From an uncultured Pseudomonadales bacterium (GTDB taxonomy: Bacteria; Pseudomonadota; Gammaproteobacteria; Pseudomonadales; Azotimanducaceae), in NCBI GenBank assembly GCA_958296195.1, contig OY282455.1, forward strand, positions 4,247,736 to 4,311,735: 64,000 nt of DNA. The letters are read 5' to 3'. Within the stretch, counting starts at the first letter, position 1. Each line of letters begins with the position of its first letter. The translations under genes and the position numbers were made by a program. The notes under the pieces were generated by a model. It saw only the letters and a list, made by a program, of their open reading frames with translations. It was not told the DNA's origin and ran no database searches. Positions 1,765 to 11,544 of the stretch are shown here, piece after piece.

Positions 1765-1954
1765 GGAACTTGAAGAACCAAGAAAACTTGCGTACGGTGC
1801 GGTCTATGCAACCAGCCGCCAAAGTTCATGAAACCAGAGGCATCCAGAGGCATTATAAGGGCACTGGTCGGCAAACTCGATTGCACGGATAATATATCTA
1901 GATGTATATTTTCTGACCATGAAGCCTAGCGCTTTCCTCGATCGTTGACCTCCT

Positions 1955-2824
1955 GTGACAAGCTCGATTTGGCTGCGCCCTGAGTTACGAGATGCGCTGC
2001 TGGGCACAGGAGGTCTCCGCGCTCAGGCCGCGGCAGCCTTGCAGCGACGCGCACTTGACGCCGACGCATTGTGGCAGATCGGAGACATGGAGCGGGGGGA
2101 CGGCCATTTTACGGCCGCACATCAGGCATATCGGCGCTTGTGTACGCTCCGCCCCGGCGACCCTTGGGCCTCTTGGCTATGCGCGATCACCGGCAGCCAT
2201 CGTTTGCCGGCGCCGCCACCGGGCGTTCGGGCGGCGCCGTTCGTGCAGATCCCGAACTTCCTGACCTCCGCAGAGGGAGAACGCTTGTTGTCCTGGGCGC
2301 AGAACGAGCGCGGACGCTTCGCACCGGGGAAGGTGGGGCCAAGTGGAAAGCGCCGAGTTGACATCTCCGAACGCCGCGGATTGGCGGCGTCTTCCAAAGC
2401 CTGCAAAGACATTGGCGCATGGCTCGTCCCGAAGGTGCGCGCCGTGCTGCCAACCGTCTCGGCGCGGCTGCGGCTGCAGGGTTTCGATAACTGCCGGATC
2501 GTCCCTGTGGCGGTGGCGTATCTCAACGGGGGCTACGGCCGCCCGCATTGCGACCCGCCACCCCTTCTCGGCAACTGCTATTTTCACGCGCAGCCGCGCC
2601 GCTTCTCCGGTGGCGACTTGTTGCTCTACGATACGGAAGTCGAGACGGGGGACTTCAAAGCCTGCGCGTTCTCGCGGATCGAGCCGGCCGCCAACAGCAT
2701 CGTCTTCCATCCCGGCGCCTATATGCATGAGATCACTCGCGTGGTCTGCGGGACGGACCGCTTCACGGACGCAAGGTTCGCCGTGACTTGCACAATCTGG
2801 CCGAATGGCGGCGCAGGAACGTAG
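1955..2824 (+). CDS. 2-oxoglutarate/Fe(II)-dependent oxygenase, prolyl-4-hydroxylase-like
   Basis: Predicted cytoplasmic dioxygenase that would hydroxylate a peptide or protein side chain. The C-terminal half has the double-stranded beta-helix signature: H198-x-D200 (PHCDPPP), a GGDLLLYD strand, the distal iron ligand H258 in FHPGAYMHEI, and R274 as the probable 2-oxoglutarate anchor. Residues 1-75 look like a short TPR-type helical region (ALWQIGDMERGDGHFTAAHQ). The start is GTG and no clear ribosome binding site is visible. It is on the opposite strand to the lasso genes but is enclosed with them between soxB and soxD, so a role as a hydroxylase of the lasso peptide is attractive but inferred. 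It could instead act on another protein. Confidence 0.8.
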   Translation: MTSSIWLRPELRDALLGTGGLRAQAAAALQRRALDADALWQIGDMERGDGHFTAAHQAYRRLCTLRPGDPWASWLCAITGSHRLPAPPPGVRAAPFVQIPNFLTSAEGERLLSWAQNERGRFAPGKVGPSGKRRVDISERRGLAASSKACKDIGAWLVPKVRAVLPTVSARLRLQGFDNCRIVPVAVAYLNGGYGRPHCDPPPLLGNCYFHAQPRRFSGGDLLLYDTEVETGDFKACAFSRIEPAANSIVFHPGAYMHEITRVVCGTDRFTDARFAVTCTIWPNGGAGT

Positions 2825-2925
2825 TTGTGTGACCTGTTGAACATCCGCCATGCCGAGCGGCCCGGCCTCGCCGCTGGTGGCCCTGCTGCCGAACGCCGCG
2901 AGGCGGCTCGGGCGGGTCATCCCGT

Positions 2926-3804
2926 TCACGCTCCCGCGGCGCCTTCCCCGGCCAGGAACGCCTCGGCGTCTCGCAGATAGCCGAACCGCTCCATGACCGG
3001 CCCGTGCGCGTCCACCAGCGCCCGCACCTGCCGCGGGCGGAGCGCGGTCCGCCAAGACCCCGCCACGCCGGCCCGGAAGAAGGACGGCGACGGCGGCTGC
3101 TTCTCCTCGAACCCGATTTCCTCCTCCTGGGCGCGCAAACGGGGGAAGGCGGCGTGGTCGATGGCCCGCGCGAGGCGCGCGCCATCCCAATCGAGGCCGG
3201 CGAAGCGGACGATCGCGCCGAACGCGGCCCGCGGGTTCGCCAGCAGGTCCTCGTACCGCGTGACATGCACCGGCAGTTCCCCTTGATCCAACCAACTCGA
3301 CACATGCCCGCTCCACGTCAGCAGCGGGATCGGCAAAAAGGTGGATAGGCTGGGCCGGGCGCCCCCTAATGTGGCAGTGGAGTGGTTCATGAACGTCACG
3401 GTGTCGTCAATGGTCTGGTGCATTTGGTGCGCGTAGGAAACCACCACGTCAAGGGGATTGCGGACCAAGTAGATCACGCCGGCCGTCGCCGCCTTCGGAA
3501 ACAGGGCCGCGCCGCTTGGCGTGTGGACGCATGCCTCGTGGACTTTGACGAAGGCCGGCGGCGGCATGGCCTCGGCAAGGGCCTCGTGCAGCAGCGGGCG
3601 GTGGCGCATGATTTCCTCCGGCGTCATGTCCGACGAAGGCAGCCCGAGAAACTCGTCGAACGTAAAGCGGACGCTGGCGGCGCACCAGCCGATCAGGGCG
3701 TTGATCGAAGCCGGCTCGCCGGCCTCGTGCAAGTAGTTGGTCAGCACCGCCCGCAGCCAAGTGTTGCCGGACTTGGGGTAGGAGGCGAGCCAGAAAATCG
3801 ACAC
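2926..3804 (-). CDS. PAPS-dependent sulfotransferase (ST1), last gene of the lasso operon
   Basis: Cytosolic-type sulfotransferase of the Sulfotransfer_1 family, which transfers sulfate from PAPS to a hydroxyl group. Visible motifs are the 5'-phosphosulfate loop ASYPKSGNTW near the N-terminus, the K-V-H catalytic segment (FVKVHEACVH), the 3'-phosphate motif VRNPLDVVVSYAHQM, and the C-terminal FFRAGVAGSWR, equivalent to GxxGxWK. The GTG at 3804 is chosen because AAGGGAG lies 6 nt upstream; longer in-frame extensions are not conserved-looking. The gene lies 16 nt behind the kinase gene, so they form one transcript. The context suggests O-sulfation of the lasso peptide. Substrate is inference. 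Confidence 0.88.
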   Translation of the reverse strand: MSIFWLASYPKSGNTWLRAVLTNYLHEAGEPASINALIGWCAASVRFTFDEFLGLPSSDMTPEEIMRHRPLLHEALAEAMPPPAFVKVHEACVHTPSGAALFPKAATAGVIYLVRNPLDVVVSYAHQMHQTIDDTVTFMNHSTATLGGARPSLSTFLPIPLLTWSGHVSSWLDQGELPVHVTRYEDLLANPRAAFGAIVRFAGLDWDGARLARAIDHAAFPRLRAQEEEIGFEEKQPPSPSFFRAGVAGSWRTALRPRQVRALVDAHGPVMERFGYLRDAEAFLAGEGAAGA

Positions 3805-3820
3805 GGATGCTCCCTTGCCG

Positions 3821-4783
3821 TCACCCGGAAGCGCCGGCCGCAGGCGAGCCCGTCTTGGCCTCGCATTCGCGCTGGTCGCGCTCCCGCAAAGATCGCTCGA
3901 TCTCGTCCGCCAGCGCATTGATCCGAAACGGGTGGGCGGGCCGCTCCACTCGGGCGATCGGCACCTGCCCCGCCATGGCCGCGACGGCGCGAAAATGCAC
4001 CGGGCGCTGGCCGAGCGCGTGCAGGCATCGCTTGCGGTAGGTGTGTTGCAACAGACACTGGAAGGCCGTGTGGAGTGTGCATGTCTCGATCTCGATGCCG
4101 CTCCGGTTGTGGGGCCTCAGCATGTAGGCGGCACGCACGGCCAAGGGGGTGATGCAGAACCGCTCCATCGGCAGCAGGTATTTCTCGATGCTTTCCCGCA
4201 CTTTGCCCCGCGTCCGAGGCCACCAACCCAATTCGTCCAGGGCGTCTGTCCACAGGCGCACGGTGGGAAACGCGGGCAACGCCGTCGGACGTCCGCCGGG
4301 GTCCAGGAGGACGCCGGTGACGTCGTCGGCGAGCATGGCGTACCCCCGTTTCAGCATTGCCGAGAGCAGCGAAGACTTGCCGGCGCCGGAGGAGCCGAGA
4401 AACAACACGGCGCCGGCCCGAGTCTCGATGGCGCTGGCGTGCAAGGTGACGACGCCCCGCTGCTGCAACAGCGCGGCAAACACCGAGCCGGTGAGAAACA
4501 CGCCCACGTTGTGATCGCTGCCGTGCGGCTCAACCAGGATGTTGCGGCCTTCCGTGACCAGATACCGCGCCACCCCGTCCACGTTGATCAGGAACGCACC
4601 GGGCGTGCCTTCCCACAGCCTGGTTTTGATGACGGGCGCGGGCAGGGCCGCGGGCACCGCGCCGACGCGAATGGCGACGTCCGGCTCTTGGTCCGGGGCG
4701 CTGGGAGAGGGGGCAAAGGGCAAGGCGATGGGAGAGTGCATCCGCAGCCCGTAGGCCATGTAGTGGTGGAGCGCGCGGCTCAC
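3821..4783 (-). CDS. HPr-kinase-like peptide kinase of the lasso cluster
   Basis: 320-residue protein with the C-terminal HPr kinase/phosphorylase fold. It shows LHASAIE at 114-120, a Walker A/P-loop GSSGAGKSS at 130-138 and the LADDVTG element at 152-158. It lacks the N-terminal domain of true HprK, and no HPr or PTS gene is nearby. Proteins of this kind in lasso clusters (the paeninodin kinase is the known example) phosphorylate a Ser at the C-terminus of the precursor. The precursor at 6883-7071 ends in Phe-Ser-Leu, so Ser16 of its core is the obvious candidate. The GTG start overlaps the stop of a small upstream frame (GTGA), which suggests translational coupling. Confidence 0.87.
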   Translation of the reverse strand: MSRALHHYMAYGLRMHSPIALPFAPSPSAPDQEPDVAIRVGAVPAALPAPVIKTRLWEGTPGAFLINVDGVARYLVTEGRNILVEPHGSDHNVGVFLTGSVFAALLQQRGVVTLHASAIETRAGAVLFLGSSGAGKSSLLSAMLKRGYAMLADDVTGVLLDPGGRPTALPAFPTVRLWTDALDELGWWPRTRGKVRESIEKYLLPMERFCITPLAVRAAYMLRPHNRSGIEIETCTLHTAFQCLLQHTYRKRCLHALGQRPVHFRAVAAMAGQVPIARVERPAHPFRINALADEIERSLRERDQRECEAKTGSPAAGASG

Positions 4784-4917
4784 GCGAGAGTCGCTCCCGC
4801 GCCCTCGAACACCTTAAAGATGAAGTGGACGCGGTCCTGATCGCCGCCGTTGAACGCGCGTTGCCATTTTCTAGCCGTGTAGCCGTGTGGAAGAGGTTGG
4901 GCCACTTTTGCCTTCAA
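4780..4917 (-). CDS. Small unexplained ORF overlapping the second precursor-like gene
   Basis: A 45-codon frame that opens after a stop and could start at TTG 4917 (or GTG a few codons later). It ends in a TGA that overlaps the kinase start codon (GTGA), an arrangement usually seen with a translated upstream gene. The C-terminal part reads RAFNGGDQDRVHFIFKVFEG, which looks protein-like but matches no family I recognise. It overlaps the 3' part of the 4871-5026 frame in another phase. It may be a true small protein, a decayed gene end, or the product of a frameshift in the precursor-like gene. Confidence 0.3.
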   Translation of the reverse strand: MKAKVAQPLPHGYTARKWQRAFNGGDQDRVHFIFKVFEGAGATLA

Positions 4918-5026
4918 TGAAATGTCCTATTGCTCTGATGGTCGGTTTGGTCAAGGGCTTCGGCGTCGGCGGGTCGGTCAGGTCTTCTGAACCAGCACAG
5001 GCCGTCGTTCCCGCTTGTGCCCGCAC
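4871..5026 (-). CDS. Second precursor-like peptide of the lasso cluster (divergent)
   Basis: 51-residue peptide starting at GTG 5026, chosen because it gives a leader of normal length; the ribosome binding site is weak. It shares the leader recognition segment of the main precursor: KPLTKPTIRAI here against KPWTKPIVRII there. That is the element a PqqD-like protein binds. The rest is GHFIEGKSGPTSSTRLHG. No Asp or Glu falls 7-9 residues after a plausible Gly1, so a normal lasso ring cannot be drawn. The C-terminal stretch is rich in Ser/Thr, which would suit kinase, sulfotransferase or glycosyltransferase substrates. It lies between ST2 and the kinase in the operon. It may be a non-lasso substrate or a decayed paralogue. 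Confidence 0.5.
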   Translation of the reverse strand: MRAQAGTTACAGSEDLTDPPTPKPLTKPTIRAIGHFIEGKSGPTSSTRLHG

Positions 5027-5075
5027 CTTGAACTCTGGGCGTGGCGTCAGCTTGGAGTCCGTTGACAAGGACGGG

Positions 5076-5921
5076 TCACATGAGGGCGTAGCCAAAATAG
5101 TCAAGGAGGTCCCGATGCGCCCGGAACACGCGATTGAACGCCGCAATATCCTGGGCGTCAAGGCGCGCGATCTGCCGGGCGTTCATATCGGTCAGCATGT
5201 CTTCGTAGTCCTTCACCCGGAGGCGTTGCCGCAGGTTCAGATCGTCGAGCTCGGGAACCAGCGCCCGAATCTCCTGCGCGACTCGCTCAGGCTGGGCGCA
5301 CATTGTCTCGTAGGTGAAGAAGACCCCGCGGCTCCGGTGTGCCTCGATGTTGCGGCGCTGCCAAGTCAGGCAGGTGACGACGTGGGTCGCCGCGGTCTCG
5401 GGCAAACTCCTGCCCTGCGCCGCGAACTGGCTCCAGTGCCGGACGAGTCTGGTGCGGTAGCGTCGGCAGATCCCTTCGCAGACCGCGTAGGGATTGCGCA
5501 CCATGAACAGGAACCGAGCGTTGCCGAAGTGTTGCGCCAACTGGTCCACGCAGAGGACATGCGGCGGCGATTTGGTGACGAACACCGAGGCGTGGGGGCT
5601 TCTGGCGCGGGCCTGGAAGTACCAGGTCTTGCGGGTGCGCGGCCAGTTGTAGCGGCCCGGGTCCGCGAAGGCGGCCACCCAACTCGGTTCGGCGGCCCAG
5701 ATCAGACGGGGGCTCGGGCAGCCGGGCTCCACCGGCTCCCTAGGGCGCGGCCCGGCGAAGCCGCGCATCCCATGACCTTCCCGGGGCAGACTCCAGGTCG
5801 CTCGGCAGGTCGCCAGCGCCTTGCTCAGGAAGGACGAGCCGCTGTTGTTCTGACAGATGACGAACAGATGCATGGTGATCACCCGCTCCATGTCGCGCCC
5901 GGCGCCGTACATGCGGGTCAT
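5076..5921 (-). CDS. Sulfotransferase-like protein (ST2) of the lasso cluster
   Basis: 281-residue protein of the broad P-loop sulfotransferase superfamily, clearly different from ST1. The N-terminal phosphosulfate loop is FVICQNNSGSSFLSKAL (about residues 20-36). The 3'-phosphate region is FLFMVRNPYAVCEGICRR, and a TSW-like WQRRNIEAH segment follows. The start ATG at 5921 overlaps the glycosyltransferase stop (ATGA), so the two are translationally coupled. As part of the lasso operon it probably modifies the same peptide or a sugar placed on it by the GT8 enzyme. Acceptor specificity cannot be read from the sequence. Confidence 0.82.
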   Translation of the reverse strand: MTRMYGAGRDMERVITMHLFVICQNNSGSSFLSKALATCRATWSLPREGHGMRGFAGPRPREPVEPGCPSPRLIWAAEPSWVAAFADPGRYNWPRTRKTWYFQARARSPHASVFVTKSPPHVLCVDQLAQHFGNARFLFMVRNPYAVCEGICRRYRTRLVRHWSQFAAQGRSLPETAATHVVTCLTWQRRNIEAHRSRGVFFTYETMCAQPERVAQEIRALVPELDDLNLRQRLRVKDYEDMLTDMNARQIARLDAQDIAAFNRVFRAHRDLLDYFGYALM

Positions 5922-6862
5922 CCGGCGTCCCTTTCGTCCTGCGGCTTGAGCCTGCGGCGCAGGTACACGCTCGCCAGGATGTCCACGTAGGTGTCGTACC
6001 AGAGCTTGAACATCGGCATCGGTGGGCGATCCGGACTGCCTCGTGTCCAGTGGAGCATGGCGTCCGGCATCCACGGTTTTACGGCTTCGCTGAAGTGCAG
6101 CACCTTGGCGCTGCCGGCGTCCACCCCGTCCTTCGCCCGGATGGCCGCTGCCCAGGGCAGCAGGAAGTTGTAGGTCCATCCGACCAGCGTCTGTCGCCCG
6201 GCGAAATACCGGTTCAGGATGAGTTGATCCGTGTGCGTGATGGGGGCGTCGTCCCAGGTCTCCGGGGACACCAAGGCCACGAGGTCCGCATGGCAGCGCT
6301 CGCCGGTGAACCGCTCGTCGATCAGCAGGAAACCGGCGTTGAAGGTCCGCTCGAAGACGCCCGCGGGGCCTGCCGGCGCCTCGGGCGGCAGGGGCGCGAA
6401 ACTGGCGGCGTCCCGGCGCTTGTCGCGCAGGGCCACGGCGTCGCCGCAGCACAGCAGCGGCTCGTCGCGGTCGAACAGGTCGTCGACGGGCGCTTGGACC
6501 AGCACGTCGCTGTCGTAGAACAGCACCTTGCGGTAGCCTCGCAGCCGGAAGGCTTCGAGCGAGTAGAGCAGGGCGGGTTGTGCGAAGTCCGGGCGCGCGG
6601 CGCACAAGCCGGCCAGCCGGGTGCGCAGCCCGGGCGAGACCGGCTCGAACCGCACGCCATCGATCGCTGCGGTGAGCCGCATGCGGTTCTCCGCGGACAG
6701 ATTGTCGTGGATGACTTTGATGTCGCCATCGAAGCGCGGATGGTGTTTAAGGAAGGACCGGAGGGTGACCAGCGTGCCCGGCACGAAGCGGTCCGTGGTC
6801 GCGGTGGCCAAGCAGATTTTCGAGGACCCGGCAGGAACCCTGGGCAGTGGCACGACAGGCAT
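5918..6862 (-). CDS. GT8-type glycosyltransferase of the lasso cluster
   Basis: 314-residue nucleotide-sugar transferase of the GT8 (GT-A fold) type. It has an N-terminal ICLATATTDRFVPGTLVTLRS strand, the metal-binding D117-x-D119 in LFYDSDVLV, the acceptor-side FNAGFLLID motif, THTDQLILN, and a late LHFSEAVKPW equivalent to the family HxxGxxKPW. The ATG lies only about 20 nt behind the precursor stop, so it is the first tailoring gene after the precursor. Lasso clusters with a GT8 gene are not a standard architecture known to me. Candidate acceptors in the core are Ser, Thr or Tyr side chains. The sugar is unknown. Confidence 0.85.
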   Translation of the reverse strand: MPVVPLPRVPAGSSKICLATATTDRFVPGTLVTLRSFLKHHPRFDGDIKVIHDNLSAENRMRLTAAIDGVRFEPVSPGLRTRLAGLCAARPDFAQPALLYSLEAFRLRGYRKVLFYDSDVLVQAPVDDLFDRDEPLLCCGDAVALRDKRRDAASFAPLPPEAPAGPAGVFERTFNAGFLLIDERFTGERCHADLVALVSPETWDDAPITHTDQLILNRYFAGRQTLVGWTYNFLLPWAAAIRAKDGVDAGSAKVLHFSEAVKPWMPDAMLHWTRGSPDRPPMPMFKLWYDTYVDILASVYLRRRLKPQDERDAG

Positions 6863-6882
6863 TTCTGCAGAAGACTCGCCTG

Positions 6883-7071
6883 CTACAAACTGAAGAAGTA
6901 CCCCGAGTTTTCAGTCGTACCCGATTTGGGTCCGCCTTTCGTCAGCAGCGCACCGTCCTTAGCAATAATCCTCACGATCGGCTTGGTCCAAGGTTTCTTC
7001 GGTGCGCCAGCCGCCGTTTCTGCTTCTGCTTGGGGGGGGGGGAGGGGGGGGGGGGTAATTTCATCAGCCAT
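6883..7071 (-). CDS. Lasso peptide precursor
   Basis: 62-residue RiPP precursor. The leader is acidic and Pro-rich and carries KPWTKPIVRIIAKDG, the Y/WxxP recognition element bound by PqqD-like RRE proteins. It ends ALLTK with the conserved Thr at the penultimate position. The predicted core is GGPKSGTTENSGYFFSL. Gly1 and Glu9 are correctly placed for a nine-residue macrolactam ring, leaving an eight-residue tail with bulky Tyr13-Phe14-Phe15 as possible steric plugs and Ser16 next to the end. An AGGAG ribosome binding site lies 9 nt before the ATG. Codons 6-13 are encoded by C12 and C11 tracts. A short gene with leader, core and neighbouring B1 and C genes makes the call strong; ring chemistry is inferred from family rules. 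Confidence 0.85.
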   Translation of the reverse strand: MADEITPPPLPPPQAEAETAAGAPKKPWTKPIVRIIAKDGALLTKGGPKSGTTENSGYFFSL

Positions 7072-7130
7072 AGTTTGTTCTCCTAGCCGTTGGATTGGTG
7101 AATCCTAACATTGCTGCTTGGAAGAGGGAG

Positions 7131-7159
7131 AATATAGACCGTCGCGTCTGCTGTGTACA
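7131..7159 (-). promoter_or_regulatory. Predicted sigma-70 promoter of the lasso precursor operon
   Basis: On the minus strand TGTACA (7154-7159, four of six matches to TTGACA) is followed after exactly 17 bp by TATATT (7131-7136, five of six matches to TATAAT). It is about 60 bp upstream of the precursor ATG. The IS target duplication begins at 7160, the very next base after the -35 box, so the element has replaced everything upstream of the core promoter. Confidence 0.5.
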
Positions 7160-7175
7160 GGTCCGCGTCGCGTCC
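7160..7175. repeat. Left 16-bp target site duplication of the IS element
   Basis: GGTCCGCGTCGCGTCC here is repeated exactly at 8688-8703 on the other side of the element, immediately outside the TGTCA...TGACA termini. A perfect duplication points to a fairly recent insertion. Confidence 0.9.
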
Positions 7176-8687
7176 TGTCAGCCCAAAGCTGTAATGTCCC
7201 CTTTCTCCAAAGTAGAAATGTCCCCTTTTGGCTGTGCCGGAGGGCGGGCGGATGTCGGAAGGACTGGTGTTGATGAGCGGCAAGAAGGCGGACAGGCTTG
7301 GCGTGGTCAGGGACGCGGCGGAGGGTCGGATTCGGCAGCGCCAGGCGGCCGAGCGGCTGGGCTTGGGGGTTCGCCAGGTCAAGCGCCTGGTGCGGCGCTA
7401 TCGGGAGCGGGGTGCGTCGGGGTTGGTGTCGAGGCGCCGGGTTCGGCGGCCGAACAACGCGATTGCGCCGGAGGTGCGCGGGCGGGCGATGGACTTGGTT
7501 CGGGAGCGCTACGCGGACTTCGGGCCGACGTTCGCTCGGGAGAAGCTGGTGGAGGTTCACGGCTTCAGGCTGTCGGCGGAGACGCTGCGCAAGTGGATGC
7601 TTGAGGACGGCCTGCGGCGGGCCAAGCCGCGCCGGGGGGCGCCGGTTCGCCAGAGGCGCCCCCGTCGTCCGTGCTTCGGGGAGCTGGTTCAGGTCGACGG
7701 CTCGGAGCACGCCTGGTTCGAGGACCGGGGGCCGCGGTGCTCGCTGATCGTGTTCATCGACGACGCGACCAGCCGGCTTTTGGCTCTGCGGTTCGTCCCG
7801 GCGGAGACCACCGAGGCCTACATGGAGGTGCTGCGCGGCCACTTGGGCGGGCATGGCCGCCCGGTGGCGGTTTATTCGGACAAGCATGGGGTCTTCCGGG
7901 TGAACCATCGGGAGCGCGAGGGGGAGCTGACGCAGTTCGGGCGGGCGCTGAGGACGCTGGACATCGAGCCGATCCATGCGGGCAGCCCGCAGGCGAAGGG
8001 GCGGGTGGAGCGGGCCAACGGGACGCTGCAGGACCGCTTGGTCAAGGAGATGCGGCTGCGGGGCATCGACGGCATGGAGGCCGGCAACGCCTTCCTGCCG
8101 GAGTTCATGGAGGACCACAACCGGCGCTTCGCGGTGGAGCCCCTTTGCCCGGCGGACGCGCACCGGCCGGTGCTGCACGACGCGGCGGAGCTGGGCCTGA
8201 TCCTGTCCCTGCACTCGACACGCAAGGTGTCGAGGAGCCTGACGCTCCGCTACCGCGGTCGGGAGCACCAGATCCAGGTTCGGGGCCAAGGCTACGGACT
8301 GCGCGGCGCCCGGGTGACGGTCTGCGAGGGCTTCGACGGGCGGGTGGCGATTCTTCGGGACGGGCGGCCGCTTGCGTTCCGGGTGCTGGCCGAGGGGGAG
8401 CCGCCCGTTTCCGTGGAGGACGAAAAGAGCGTCCGCCATGCGGTGGACCGGGCCAAGGCGCGCCAACAGGCACGCCCGAACTGGAAGCCCGCCCCGGACC
8501 ATCCTTGGAGGCGGGCGGCGCACGTCGGCGCCGAGCGCACCGCGGCGGGGCCGTGACTTCCGGTCGCTCCGCTCCCTCCGTTCACGGCCCCGCCGCCCCC
8601 CGGCGAATCCAGCGACGGCCGCCAAGGAACCGGAAAGGGGACATTTCTGCTTTGGAGAAAAGGGGACATTTCTGCTTTGGTTTGACA
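7176..8687 (+). mobile_element. Complete IS element of the IS1202 / ISNCY type
   Basis: 1512-bp element with inverted ends TGTCA...TGACA. Each end carries two copies of a motif close to AAAGCAGAAATGTCCCCTTT, at about 7184-7230 and, inverted, 8634-8681; these are probable transposase binding sites. A single transposase gene fills the inside. The 16-bp perfect target duplication fits the long duplications known for IS1202 relatives. It lies between the lasso cyclase and precursor genes. Confidence 0.9.
7252..8556 (+). CDS. IS1202-type (ISNCY family) DDE transposase
   Basis: 434-residue transposase. It has an N-terminal helix-turn-helix (RQRQAAERLGLGVRQVKRLV) and a second DNA-binding segment, followed by an rve-type catalytic core. 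Visible catalytic residues are Asp in VQVDGSEHAWFED, Asp in AVYSDKHGVF, and Glu in GRVERANGTLQDRLVKEMR. The C-terminal domain (LTLRYRGREHQIQV) is characteristic of this group. ATG 7252 is preferred to an upstream frame extension because GGAGGG lies about 8 nt before it. No internal stop or frameshift is present, so the element may be active. Confidence 0.92.
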   Translation: MSEGLVLMSGKKADRLGVVRDAAEGRIRQRQAAERLGLGVRQVKRLVRRYRERGASGLVSRRRVRRPNNAIAPEVRGRAMDLVRERYADFGPTFAREKLVEVHGFRLSAETLRKWMLEDGLRRAKPRRGAPVRQRRPRRPCFGELVQVDGSEHAWFEDRGPRCSLIVFIDDATSRLLALRFVPAETTEAYMEVLRGHLGGHGRPVAVYSDKHGVFRVNHREREGELTQFGRALRTLDIEPIHAGSPQAKGRVERANGTLQDRLVKEMRLRGIDGMEAGNAFLPEFMEDHNRRFAVEPLCPADAHRPVLHDAAELGLILSLHSTRKVSRSLTLRYRGREHQIQVRGQGYGLRGARVTVCEGFDGRVAILRDGRPLAFRVLAEGEPPVSVEDEKSVRHAVDRAKARQQARPNWKPAPDHPWRRAAHVGAERTAAGP

Positions 8688-8703
8688 GGTCCGCGTCGCG
8701 TCC
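8688..8703. repeat. Right 16-bp target site duplication of the IS element
   Basis: Exact copy of 7160-7175. Removing 7176-8703 restores a short uninterrupted spacer between the cyclase stop and the precursor promoter. Confidence 0.9.
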
Positions 8704-8770
8704 GGTTGTGCCCTCCCCTTGAAATTTGGGCGCAGCCTGGACGGACCCCGGGGCGCAGCGTTTTGTCCGG

Positions 8771-10606
8771 TCAGAAGTCAAGGAACTGCACGGCGTTGTG
8801 AATGGGCATGAGTTGCGGCTTGGCCCGGAACAGGTCCGGGTCCAGGCGCTCAAGGAGGCGCGGCATGTCGATGAAGCGGGCGCGGGATGGTGCGGCGCCG
8901 GTGGCCAGCGCCCGCCGGACCACCGGCAGGGCCTCGGCGAAGGATTCGATGAACGGCTCATAGCGGGCCGGATCGGCCTTGCTCGAGTTCCAGCAGAGTT
9001 CGGGCGGCAGTACCGACCGGAGCGCGTGGCGCATCAGCCAGCGGGTCTGCCGCCCGCGCCTGAACTGCTCGGGCGGCAGGCCCAGCGCAAACTCCAGCAA
9101 CCGGCGGTCCAGCAGCGGGTAACGGTACTCCATGCCGTGCGCCGCGCCGCTCGCGGCCCACCCTTCGATGCGTTGGCTCAGATGCCCGGCCTGCAGCATC
9201 TGTAACTGCGTGTCCCGCACGCCGACCTGCCGGGGAATTCGCCTGGGCGCGGGTTTCACGCGGCGGGCGAACGCCGGGTCAATGAGCCAGCGCCGATGAC
9301 GAAGCCCGTCTCCTCGCCGCAGCCTGCGAAGGATGCCCGGCAGGTCGGGATGCACGAGGGGCAGCGCGACGCTCGCCAGGAACTTGATCGGGTTGACCTC
9401 GCGGGCGCGGCCCTCGGTGAGCAACCTCAGCCAGCGCCCGGTGAGGAGCAGGTGCGCGTGGTGGCCGTGGCCGTTGAACGACGCGCCCTCGTCGCCGCCC
9501 CATCCCGACAGCAGCACGCGCACGCCTTGTTCCGCGGCGCAGCGCTGCACCACCATCTCGTTCGGGTGGACGTGGACGCCGGGGCAGGCCCCGTCGCGCC
9601 GCAGCATGGCGACGACGTCGCCCGGGCTCGGCGCCCGGTGAAAGACCTGGATCCCTTCCTGCGCGCACACCGCGGCGATGGCGTCGTACTCGGCCGCGTG
9701 AGACTCGCTGGGTGGGTGGTCGCCAAGCGTTGGCAGCCAACTGAAGGCGAGCGGCGACGGCCGGCCTTGACGCCGCAATTCACGGGCGGCCAACACCGCA
9801 ATGCTGGAGGAATCCAGGCCGCCGCTGAGGTGCACGCCCACGGGGTCGGGGCCGCGCAAACGGTCCGTCACGGCCTGCGCGTAGAGATTCAGGAACTCCT
9901 CGGCGTAGGCGTCGTCGGAGGCCGCTCGAGCCGCGGGCGCATGCTCGGGACGCCAGTACCGTTCCAGCCGTGCCTCTCCACCCTTGATGGTCAGCGTATG
10001 GCCGGGCGGCAGCTTGCGGACCGCCTTGAAGAACGTGTGCGTCGTCGTTCCCAGCATGGGGCGCGTCAAGTGCGCCGCCACGGTGGCTTCATCCAGTTCG
10101 CCGGAGACGCCGGGCGCGGCGAGCACGGCTTCGACGGCGCTGGCGAAGACGAGGCCTCGCGGCGTCTGGGCGTAGTGGAAGGGCCGGGCGCCGGCGTGGT
10201 CGCGGGCGCAGAAGAGCACGCGCTGCTTGGCGTCCCATACGGCGAAGGCGTAGTCCCCGAGCAGGTGGGTCGGACACGCCCGGCCCCAGCGCGCGTAGGC
10301 TCGGAGAATGAGTTCGTCGTCGGTGACGTCGGCCCGGTCGGGGTGAGGGACGCCGAGGGCGTCGCAGAGCGACTCGCGGTCGTCAAGGCGGGCGTCCGCG
10401 GTGAGGGCGAGGCCGGTCGCGGGGTCGAAGCGGGGCAGGCGGTCGGCTCGCTCGCCCTCCGTCCCCGTGCGCCGGCAGCCGAGCCCAACGCCTGCGTCCG
10501 TCCACGTCGCGCCGTCGGCCCCGTAGTCGGAGAGTGCCGCCAGCATGGGGTCGAGGCCGTTTGCGCCCTCCTGGCGACGGAGCTGGCATCCGCAGATGGC
10601 GCGCAT
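8771..10606 (-). CDS. Lasso peptide cyclase (asparagine-synthetase-like, C protein)
   Basis: 611-residue protein with an N-terminal glutaminase-like Ntn domain and a C-terminal asparagine-synthetase domain. The PP-loop VHLSGGLDSSSIAVLAA lies at about residues 258-274 and binds ATP. In lasso biosynthesis it adenylates the core Asp/Glu side chain and closes the macrolactam on Gly1. The N-terminus is MRAICGCQL, so the Cys is not at position 2 as glutamine-dependent asparagine synthetases require. This argues for a cyclase. The ATG overlaps a tiny 11-codon frame (TGATG). It follows the RRE gene by 68 nt and ends 83 nt before the IS. Confidence 0.88.
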   Translation of the reverse strand: MRAICGCQLRRQEGANGLDPMLAALSDYGADGATWTDAGVGLGCRRTGTEGERADRLPRFDPATGLALTADARLDDRESLCDALGVPHPDRADVTDDELILRAYARWGRACPTHLLGDYAFAVWDAKQRVLFCARDHAGARPFHYAQTPRGLVFASAVEAVLAAPGVSGELDEATVAAHLTRPMLGTTTHTFFKAVRKLPPGHTLTIKGGEARLERYWRPEHAPAARAASDDAYAEEFLNLYAQAVTDRLRGPDPVGVHLSGGLDSSSIAVLAARELRRQGRPSPLAFSWLPTLGDHPPSESHAAEYDAIAAVCAQEGIQVFHRAPSPGDVVAMLRRDGACPGVHVHPNEMVVQRCAAEQGVRVLLSGWGGDEGASFNGHGHHAHLLLTGRWLRLLTEGRAREVNPIKFLASVALPLVHPDLPGILRRLRRGDGLRHRRWLIDPAFARRVKPAPRRIPRQVGVRDTQLQMLQAGHLSQRIEGWAASGAAHGMEYRYPLLDRRLLEFALGLPPEQFRRGRQTRWLMRHALRSVLPPELCWNSSKADPARYEPFIESFAEALPVVRRALATGAAPSRARFIDMPRLLERLDPDLFRAKPQLMPIHNAVQFLDF

Positions 10607-10674
10607 CACGCGCCGTTCCCGTGGGGTCGGAAGTGGGTCATGTCGCCCGATGTGCCGTCCAGGGTCCGAATGGT

Positions 10675-11025
10675 CTAGGCCTGATCGGATTGAACGTGGA
10701 TGATCCTCAGGGTGCTCGCCGCTTGCAGGAATTCCAGAGTATCGCGGCGGCAGACGTCGAGATCGACGTCGTACTCGGCCGCCAGCGCGTCGCAGATTTC
10801 GGCGGTGGGCCGGGCGGTTTCCAACAATGTCCAGATTTTCGCGGCGACCGGACCGAATTCGTAGTACTGCTCCTCGTCAACGTCCATCATGATGATGACG
10901 TCGTCGAGATCCGTGAAGACGATGGCTTCGTTGCGCACCACCCGGGAGGTGAGTTCGATGACTGCGTCTGATTGACTTGGGGTGTCGCGGTCGCTTTGGT
11001 TGTTAGGCGCATCCTTTGACATCAT
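10675..11025 (-). CDS. PqqD-family RRE protein (lasso leader-binding B1 protein)
   Basis: 116-residue PqqD-like protein that binds the precursor leader and presents it to the leader peptidase and cyclase. The fold is visible as VVRNEAIVFTDLDDVIIMMD, YYEFGPVAAKIWTLLE, then TAEICDALAAEYDVDLDVC and LQAASTLRIIHV. The N-terminal 25 residues are polar and probably disordered. Two adjacent ATGs (11025 and 11022) follow AGGAA; a longer extension has no support. It is the first gene of the lasso operon. In split-B clusters it acts with a separate transglutaminase-like protease B2, which is not found in this window. Confidence 0.88.
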   Translation of the reverse strand: MMSKDAPNNQSDRDTPSQSDAVIELTSRVVRNEAIVFTDLDDVIIMMDVDEEQYYEFGPVAAKIWTLLETARPTAEICDALAAEYDVDLDVCRRDTLEFLQAASTLRIIHVQSDQA

Positions 11026-11135
11026 GGTTCCTAGATTCAACTCACAAACGCGATTTCTCCCCGGCGGCGGGGATGGGTGGGCTGGCATAATGCAGGCTGT
11101 CCCGTTCCCCCTGCTACAGACGAAGGAGAAAGCGC

Positions 11136-11290
11136 ATGCACAGCCAGCTCACCCAAGAGCAAAGATGCCAGATCGAGGCGCTCGCTTCCATAGGCGAGAA
11201 GCAGACGACCCTCGCCGGCGTGGTCGGAGTTCACCCGTCCACCATCAGCAGGGAGACGTCCCGGAACCAACCGCCAGGGAAGCAAGGCTG
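11136..11290 (+). pseudogene. IS30-family transposase, N-terminal fragment
   Basis: From ATG 11136 the frame reads MHSQLTQEQRCQIEALASIG and continues through GVHPSTISRE, the N-terminal helix-turn-helix of IS30-type transposases. Similarity stops after about 50 codons, and the catalytic domain is gone. The GGAGAAAGCGC before the ATG looks like an original ribosome binding site. Part of the element debris between the lasso genes and soxB. Confidence 0.7.
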
Positions 11291-11312
11291 CTTGGGCATT
11301 CGGGAACTGACA

Positions 11313-11498
11313 TGAACAAACAGACATTTGGCAGCGTTTGGGACGCTATTGAGGCAGCGGGAGGCTGCGCAGCTTTTGGGCATTTCGCAGCCGCGGGTGA
11401 GCACCCTGATGAAAGGCAGCTACGAGTCGTTTCGCTTGGACACCTTAGTTGAATTCGCTTTAAGGTGCGGGCGCACCATAGACATTAACGCCGGCTAA
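11313..11498 (+). pseudogene. Decayed HigA-type (XRE) antitoxin gene
   Basis: The start encodes MNKQTFGSVWDAIE, the usual opening of HigA2-like XRE antitoxins. In a different reading frame the 3' part encodes REAAQLLGISQPRVSTLMKG, then SFRLDTLVEFA, and ends TIDINAG-stop at 11498. The middle, including the first part of the helix-turn-helix domain, is deleted around 11350. No partner toxin is visible. Probably a remnant of a mobile toxin-antitoxin pair. Confidence 0.65.
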
Positions 11499-11544
11499 CA
11501 AACCCAACAAGCAAGGACGCTTGCTGATAGGCTGGTTGCGGGTT

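Follow-up and report, generated by a model that had tools for sequence, protein, structure and literature searches.

A lasso-type locus of an uncultured Pseudomonadales bacterium as a probable module of a dispersed, single-protease system with poly-C tracts in its precursor genes

Tailoring enzymes are known from several lasso-peptide systems. According to passages of PMC8498205, kinases modify a C-terminal Ser, some Firmicutes clusters carry a putative sulfotransferase gene, and a nucleotidyltransferase adds hexoses in pseudomycoidin. A 2022 report on sponge metagenomes describes, in its section on such families, 'highly modified lassopeptide' clusters with hydrolases, oxidoreductases, and sulfo-, glyco-, and nucleotidyltransferases (PMC9426513). 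Here, we compare with these systems a lasso-type locus in a 64-kb stretch of DNA (hereafter, the window; contig OY282455.1, positions 4,247,736 to 4,311,735) from an uncultured Pseudomonadales bacterium, whose genome (G000) is a single contig (C1) of 4,311,735 bp. Genes for an RRE protein, an asparagine-synthetase-like (AsnB-like) cyclase, a precursor, a GT8 glycosyltransferase, two sulfotransferases (ST1 and ST2), and an HPrK-like kinase, all reported in a preliminary description of the window, are present on its minus strand. Judged by family scores and by its recurrence elsewhere, the locus is more than chance: it is a real lasso-type locus carrying the reported tailoring genes, although not one operon. 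We consider it probable that it forms a single module within a lasso system spread over the chromosome, in which a single protease serves switchable precursors. Neither the genome-wide dispersal nor the poly-C tracts on which this reading draws were part of the preliminary description.

The likeness to the sponge-metagenome families, judged from descriptions of the loci, is that of lasso clusters with additional sulfotransferases, glycosyltransferases, and the like. The earlier suggestion that glycosylation, double sulfation, phosphorylation, and possible hydroxylation had not been described together is therefore partly pre-empted by that report (PMC9426513), but its section on these families mentions neither chromosomal dispersal, nor a single B2 protease for many cyclases, nor poly-C tracts, all of which are seen in G000. 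A sponge-symbiont lifestyle for the host of G000 would be a guess. With paeninodin-type systems, as presented in passages of PMC8498205, the family shares an HPrK-like kinase gene, and most of its precursors end in Ser; unlike those systems, the window precursor ends in Ser-Leu, a sulfotransferase is paired with the kinase, and the protease is encoded outside of the locus. The phospho-glycosylated pseudomycoidin resembles the family in combining a kinase with a nucleotidyltransferase (passages of PMC8498205 and PMC9266682), whereas the G000 family also has GT8 and sulfotransferases; the passages of PMC9266682 name no sulfation or GT8 enzyme. Homologues of Asp/Asn beta-hydroxylases occur in several loci of the family, in likeness to the 2-oxoglutarate (2OG) beta-hydroxylase CanE of canucin A (passages of PMC8498205), but the window has only a hydroxylase remnant, and its intact oxygenase is of another type. 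The citrulassin deiminase, which the same passages place outside of its cluster, is likewise a lasso enzyme acting in trans, although the remote part in our case is the essential protease. Phase-variable contingency genes, finally, are alike in having a homopolymer in the 5' coding region, from which frame-dependent expression would be expected. The parts of the phase-variable homopolymer literature that we found make no mention of lasso peptides, and our literature search, which left preprints and most subscription papers outside, turned up no report of phase-variable lasso genes and no study of GT8-sulfotransferase pairs acting on lasso peptides.

Many cyclases and one B2 protease in the source genome

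A cyclase profile identified nine full-length copies (950–1089 bits) at scattered sites of G000, in addition to fragments and more distant members. Against these nine, there is one B2 protease over the cut-off, at C1:1215762 (NF033537, 71 bits, cut-off 33), and PF13471 matches only at C1:1215804 and, weakly, at 3178945. The RRE, the cyclase, and the precursor that the preliminary description called the minimal part of a lasso cluster are indeed in the window locus, but we found there neither a B2 protease nor an exporter gene, and the window has no PF13471 match. The B2 gene adjoins an NTP_transf_5 gene, and GT8, ST1, a cyclase fragment, HPrK, and ST2 are found 7 to 11 kb from it, with MFS and TonB-receptor genes in between. 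Five PqqD matches were found in G000: two window-type RREs, two members of another lasso branch, and one incomplete copy that is split between two frames. The second window-type RRE is 52 per cent identical to the first and adjoins an ABC-transporter gene.

The tailoring genes are similarly dispersed. With repeats from overlapping loci removed, the fetched G000 loci contain at least 10 GT8, at least 11 ST1, at least 7 HPrK, and at least 4 ST2 copies of at least 70 per cent length; two of the HPrK copies and one of ST2 come from the more distant L017 branch. At C1:419874, 786478, and 2562220, precursor-GT8-ST1 cassettes occur with no cyclase nearby (at the last site, the GT8 and ST1 matches are each split in two), and the precursor at C1:456751 has none of these lasso genes nearby. 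Locus L022 encodes a 631-residue HPrK-TPR-2OG fusion (L022:240-2135) with three tandem precursor copies nearby. The more distant branch itself is represented by L017 and L018 (C1:2118000-2148000), two lasso-type loci without B2 that contain an RRE, a cyclase, an ERKAWTEP-type precursor, HPrK, and 2OG, with ST2 in one of them.

In a phylogenetic tree of 47 cyclases, the nine G000 copies fall into nine supported clades, each with relatives elsewhere, which led us to reject an origin of these paralogues by recent duplication. The window cyclase is sister to the cyclase of locus L031 from another genome (86 per cent; support 100/100). Some cassettes are nonetheless recent copies, as in L125 and L126 and in the L022 tandem.

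A genome scan, of which the best 80 matches were kept, returned at least 79 loci, and neighbouring genes were annotated in 37 of them (L031-L066 and L068). Among the matches listed, 28 of the 30 loci with at least 52 per cent identity are in OY282xxx chromosomes of metagenome-assembled genomes labelled Pseudomonadales or Gammaproteobacteria. Full-length cyclases (>800 bits) number 11 in G042, six in G039, five plus one split copy in G040, four in G041, three each in G043 and G038, and one in G044; six further genomes were represented by one best cyclase copy each (508–801 bits). A single B2 over the cut-off was found in 13 of 14 genomes, the remaining one (G044) having two. At E<=1e-120, with the three best candidates per genome scored, the family was present in four of 390 genomes from the order and two of 398 from the phylum (G000 being in both samples), and eight genomes of the same genus gave no strong cyclase match (best E 2e-39). 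On this rarity, we rejected the possibility that the family is a common trait of the lineage.

In four of the annotated loci (L031, L058, L059, and L068), HPrK, two to three sulfotransferases, GT8, and an Asp-hydroxylase stand together with RRE, cyclase, exporter, and B2 within 12–17 kb. The preliminary description had proposed a search for the same gene set in other genomes; these four loci are where it recurs, and the company of RRE, cyclase, exporter, and B2 supports both the lasso identity and the tailoring set of the window locus. L031 has GT8, ST1, Asp-hydroxylase, HPrK, ST2, RRE, and cyclase and, 6.6 kb further, NTP_transf_5, B2, and ABC-transporter genes, with no insertion sequence (IS). 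The set of L058 is complete inside 12 kb, and L059 is a near-copy of it. In L068, from the named isolate Sphingorhabdus soli (now Flavisphingopyxis soli), the set is complete within about 15 kb, with 4.1 kb between the tailoring genes and the B2 group, and the precursor, with Thr at -2, has the canonical core GGPITSAPEQPFYSVS. Because L059 is nearly identical to L058, it does not establish transfer across phyla. A single 14-kb contig is the basis for labelling L048 as Verrucomicrobia.

Two pairs of tailoring genes recur as modules. Over the 37 loci, with matches below 70 per cent length removed, ST2 adjoins HPrK in 18 of 19 cases and ST1 adjoins GT8 in 26 of 39. Chance adjacency was rejected by a shuffle test, in which the observed 28 GT8/ST1 and 18 HPrK/ST2 adjacent pairs compare with maxima of 15 and 8 over 1000 shuffles. 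For 58 precursors, the nearest downstream gene on the same strand is GT8 (16), ST1 (13), HPrK (6), Asp-hydroxylase (5), RRE (2), 2OG (1), or cyclase (1), and in 14 cases none of these lasso genes lies within 900 nt. A plasmid search with the GT8-ST1 pair gave no match.

Precursors with a shared leader and poly-C tracts

Precursors of the family share a leader, often with a poly-Pro stretch, that continues as K-P-W-[STA]-K-P-x-[IVLT]. Five of the 60 rows returned by the precursor pattern are false positives; they were retained in the ring-spacing and tail counts and removed from the downstream-gene, tract, and frame counts. Precursor A of the window (6883–7071, minus strand; 62 residues) was recognized from family alignments and matches the whole-genome precursor profile with 48.4 bits. 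It begins with MADEITPPPLPPPQ, its leader contains PPPLPPP and KKPWTKPIVR and ends with KKPWTKPIVRIIAKDGALLTK, and the probable core, GGPKSGTTENSGYFFSL, follows. We infer the cut site between the last two from the Gly1–Glu9 spacing and from Thr at -2, the latter being typical of lasso precursors. Precursor A thus combines the leader motif with an N-terminal Gly and an acidic residue at position 7–9, and its core possibly forms a Gly1–Glu9 ring (GGPKSGTTE).

Across the family, a ring spacing of 8 occurs in 32 of the 60 tails (shuffle maximum of 24 in 500 shuffles) and a spacing of 9 in 22 (shuffle maximum of 22), and no other size between 4 and 14 exceeds its own maximum; some cores lack a Gly plus an acidic residue at ring position 7–9. 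Ser is the C-terminal residue in 44 of the 60 tails, but in only two of the six precursors nearest a kinase gene. Tyr is present in 53 of the 60 tails, and all 29 precursors with GT8 or ST1 as the next gene carry it in the last 12 residues. A Tyr near the C-terminus would fit tyrosyl or sugar sulfation, although it is weak evidence, because almost all family members have a Tyr. Two long precursors adjoining an Asp/Asn hydroxylase gene (L025:7681-8241 and L057:11841-12179) have two Cys in the probable core and are possibly disulfide-bearing variants. G000 has 18 open frames with the motif and one truncated precursor, eight pattern rows having been removed as chance and two WTEP-type rows tallied separately, and the profile gives 24 matches at E<=0.05. 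At the profile matches in L123, L124, L127, and L128, the pattern search found no precursor; precursor-like frames were later seen in L127 and L128.

The Pro runs of the leader are encoded by runs of up to 33 C just past the start codon, and a C run of at least nine lies within 220 nt upstream in 31 of the 60 family precursors. In precursor A, the tract (7032–7055, minus strand) consists of 12 C, one T, and 11 C on the coding strand and stands directly after the start codon, an in-frame ATG. Its runs are the sole C or G runs of at least nine in the window, in which no other exceeds eight. In the 384,019 bp of G000 that were examined, 13 of the 17 tracts of at least 14 directly precede a precursor motif, and two more precede profile matches, at C1:1222968 and 2982212. 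The last two, C20 and C22, lie just upstream of kinase matches of the L017 branch (L017/L018 loci). In G042, six of 13 tracts fall, among the matches listed, at most 50 nt before profile matches.

Tract lengths differ between otherwise similar copies. The L022 tandem precursors, which have the same surrounding sequence, carry 19, 13, and 17 C, the copy with 17 being out of frame, and L125 and L126, 99.5 per cent identical over 2,279 bp, carry 25 and 33 C. As at contingency loci, then, a long homopolymer lies in the 5' coding region and differs in length between near-equal copies, differences in which sequencing error is possible. An in-frame ATG within 130 nt is present in 17 of 33 precursors with a tract of at least nine versus 24 of 29 without one (Fisher test; P-value = 0.015; related copies are not independent), and when GTG and TTG are also allowed, the counts are 23 of 33 versus 27 of 29 (P-value = 0.026). 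Because of homopolymer sequencing error, exact precursor frames are uncertain. In G040, one cyclase (C1:4873240-4875124) is broken by a C run of at least 16 (windows from 4874623), which divides it between two frames. Counted as overlapping C14 windows, genomes with the family have 258 (G000), 215 (G039), 137 (G042), 54 (G040), 43 (G043), 13 (G038), 1 (G045), and 0 (G041 and G044), and genomes without a close cyclase have 193 (G005), 20 (G006), 14 (G001), and 0 (G009 and G016). The examined DNA of G000 contains 130 of its 258, 88 of which are in the 13 motif-linked tracts. The position and length differences of the tracts suggest that they probably mediate phase variation of the precursors.

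The window locus, its setting, and its enzymes

The RRE gene (B1, PqqD family; 10675–11022, minus strand; alternative start at 11088) matches PF05402 with 59.4 bits, which places its product in the PqqD family; NF033536 is its top NCBIfam model (55.4 bits, under the cut-off of 80). The cyclase gene (8771–10609, minus strand) matches NF033535 with 366.5 bits, under the cut-off of 525, and encodes SGGLDSS, which we take to be the loop of that name. Between the cyclase and precursor A, a 1.7-kb gap is occupied by an ISNCY-type IS on the opposite strand (7176–8684, plus strand), whose transposase open reading frame (7228-8556) matches NF033594 over the cut-off (441 bits); it lies between 19-bp direct repeats at 7157–7175 and 8685–8703, the target-site duplication.

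Downstream of precursor A lie the genes for GT8 (5918–6862, minus strand; PF01501, 63.7 bits) and ST1 (5076–5921, minus strand; Sulfotransfer_3, PF13469, 49.8 bits), which overlap (ATGA). Then follow about 290 nt of decayed sequence, which include a truncated second precursor (4871–5000, minus strand; upstream limit uncertain) with a weak profile match (E 0.013), the retained leader KPLTKPTIR, and a core Gly with no acidic ring residue after it, as well as a C-terminal remnant of an Asp/Asn beta-hydroxylase (4795–4866, minus strand). The remnant retains about 24 final residues and agrees at 20 of 32 aligned positions (63 per cent, one 8-residue gap) with L025:8484-9089, a PF05118 match. The HPrK-like kinase gene (3821–4783, minus strand) matches TIGR04352 (30 bits) and PF07475 (23.6 bits), both under the cut-off, and encodes GSSGAGKS, which we take to be a P-loop; such kinase genes recur near cyclases of the family, so that, as in paeninodin-type clusters, a kinase belongs to the cluster. 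The ST2 gene (2926–3804, minus strand; Sulfotransfer_1, PF00685, 80.7 bits) is spaced 16 nt from it. In L019, the gene order corresponds to that of the window: precursor, hydroxylase remnant, kinase (81 per cent), and ST2 (88 per cent). ST1 and ST2 had been called unrelated, and their best matches are to different Pfam families, but ST2, with 33.6 bits, likewise exceeds the cut-off of Sulfotransfer_3. A gene for a TPR/2OG-Fe(II) oxygenase-like protein (1955–2824, plus strand) lies tail to tail with that for ST2. The oxygenase previously placed at the edge of the locus thus exists as a gene, but its match is weak (PF13640, E 7e-4, under the Pfam cut-off) and it is on the opposite strand. Its relatives adjoin cyclases, with a 90 per cent identical paralogue in L026 and 88–91 per cent identical ones in L043-L045.

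The tight coupling that had been taken to indicate a single operon therefore holds for the GT8-ST1 and HPrK-ST2 pairs, but 1.7 kb with an IS and the decayed sequence interrupt the rest. With B2 elsewhere, an intervening IS, and the oxygenase on the other strand, the proposal of one self-sufficient operon is not supported.

The 9.8-kb block between soxD and soxB (1765–11544) splits a soxB-soxD-soxA (sarcosine-oxidase) operon, whose genes were identified by TIGR01373 and TIGR01372/TIGR01374 matches. In G001, of the same genus, the L131 alignment has soxB ending at 2751 and soxD starting at 2968, about 0.2 kb apart and uninterrupted. Within the block, a short open reading frame (window 11136-11315) has no NCBIfam match; by eye, it presumably resembles the N-terminus of an IS30-type transposase. 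The window gave no Rfam match and no tRNA in ARAGORN.

The structural model of ST1 (predicted local distance difference test, pLDDT, 92.9) has as its nearest solved folds CurM, OLS, and tyrosylprotein sulfotransferases (TM 0.46–0.58 among the top 15); these neighbours include small-molecule, heparan, and tyrosyl types and single out no one acceptor type. For GT8 (pLDDT 87.1), the nearest folds are LgtC and glycogenin, which do not fix the acceptor, and residues D117 and D119 are invariant across 27 aligned sequences. Sequence searches of the PDB yielded no strong match; the best had E 0.17 for ST1 and, to an HPr kinase, E 0.046 for the kinase.

Competing explanations and meaning for the family

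The dispersed single-protease reading starts from direct observations: the gene content, one B2 against nine cyclases, the shared leader, the adjacency within cassettes, and the tracts with their length differences. As a working mechanism, an RRE would present the shared leader to the single remote B2 protease, both acting in trans, and an AsnB-type cyclase would close a Gly1–Glu8/9 ring into a threaded fold. The GT8-ST1 cassette may then glycosylate and sulfate the ring or tail, the HPrK-ST2 cassette may phosphorylate and sulfate, and the oxygenases may hydroxylate. Slippage in poly-C tracts at replication would turn precursors on or off by frame in living cells. More tentatively, and at somewhat lower confidence than we would need to favour it, the system may constitute a stochastic combinatorial repertoire, in which one B2 and one to two RREs serve 9–11 cyclases together with some 20 dispersed precursors, while slippage toggles the precursors (and the G040 cyclase).

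It is unlikely, in our estimate, that only the other G000 loci work and that the copy within the sox operon has lost its function and is decaying, although the truncated second precursor, the hydroxylase remnant, the IS between cyclase and precursor, and the failure to find B2 and an exporter in the locus would all fit such a relict. Relative to L031, the ratios of nonsynonymous to synonymous substitution rates (dN/dS) are 0.60 for the cyclase, 0.63 for ST2, and 0.69 for HPrK, which would also fit; but all ratios are below 1, those of the RRE (0.28; 77 codons), ST1 (0.34), and GT8 (0.41) are lower, the seven minus-strand frames are full length and open, and precursor A retains its in-frame ATG. 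That the locus makes its product alone, the leader being cut by an unrelated protease or left on, draws on the joint presence of RRE, cyclase, and precursor and on the similar, IS-free gene run of L031. Since L031, L058, L059, and L068 keep B2 near the same gene set and just a single B2 of G000 passes the cut-off, we regard this as highly improbable. Hardly more probable is that the AsnB-like enzyme makes an unthreaded macrolactam or another amide, so that the product would be a ribosomally synthesized and post-translationally modified peptide but not a lasso: the sub-cut-off RRE and cyclase scores and the cores without a Gly plus an acidic residue at 7–9 would allow it, yet lasso models score best, B2 is over its cut-off, Gly-Asp/Glu spacing 8 is enriched, and L068 has a canonical core. 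The most serious challenge to switching is that the tracts merely encode poly-proline, with lengths altered by assembly errors. The tracts do encode Pro, CCC makes up 43 per cent of Pro codons in nine window genes, homopolymer errors are common, and the frame difference is modest; however, the nine window genes have no run of four Pro, the window has no other C or G run over eight, tract-free copies are more often in frame, and the G040 cyclase is broken exactly at a C run. We therefore consider this explanation somewhat unlikely.

Several observations weigh against the dispersed, switchable system that we prefer. The copies compared in the frame test include related ones that are not independent, homopolymer length is error-prone in sequencing and assembly, and the DNA examined was selected for its lasso loci, with 128 of the 258 C14 windows of G000 lying outside it. 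The 193 C14 windows of G005 occur in a genome of the same genus without the family, in which other genes may carry tracts, and G041 and G044 have the family with no C14 run. Both the RRE and the cyclase of the window score under the curated lasso-model cut-offs, and the cyclase dN/dS of 0.60 is the highest among 13 pairs (the other 12 orthologue pairs have 0.27–0.59), which could reflect relaxed constraint. Known kinases of this type reportedly require a C-terminal Ser, whereas precursor A ends in Ser-Leu, and the kinase cassette of the window has a truncated precursor only. Finally, L059, labelled Gemmatimonadetes, is 98–99 per cent identical to most of L058, labelled Gammaproteobacteria, which may be due to recent transfer or misbinning.

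The locus is of interest chiefly for what lies outside its own coordinates: a dispersed system with one protease, whose precursors are probably switched. The family provides some 15 different cores that share a leader motif, cyclases that could be combined, GT8-sulfotransferase pairs, and, in L068, an isolate with a complete set. If our reading is correct, cluster finders could miss cyclase-free cassettes and label loci without B2 as incomplete, and the one-cluster-one-product rule of genome mining would be broken. Natural-product genes would be under contingency-locus control, with lasso enzymes acting in trans across a whole chromosome, and, should the combinatorial repertoire exist, the blend of sulfated, glycosylated, and phosphorylated lasso peptides would differ from cell to cell, somewhat as in antigenic variation but with a secreted natural product.

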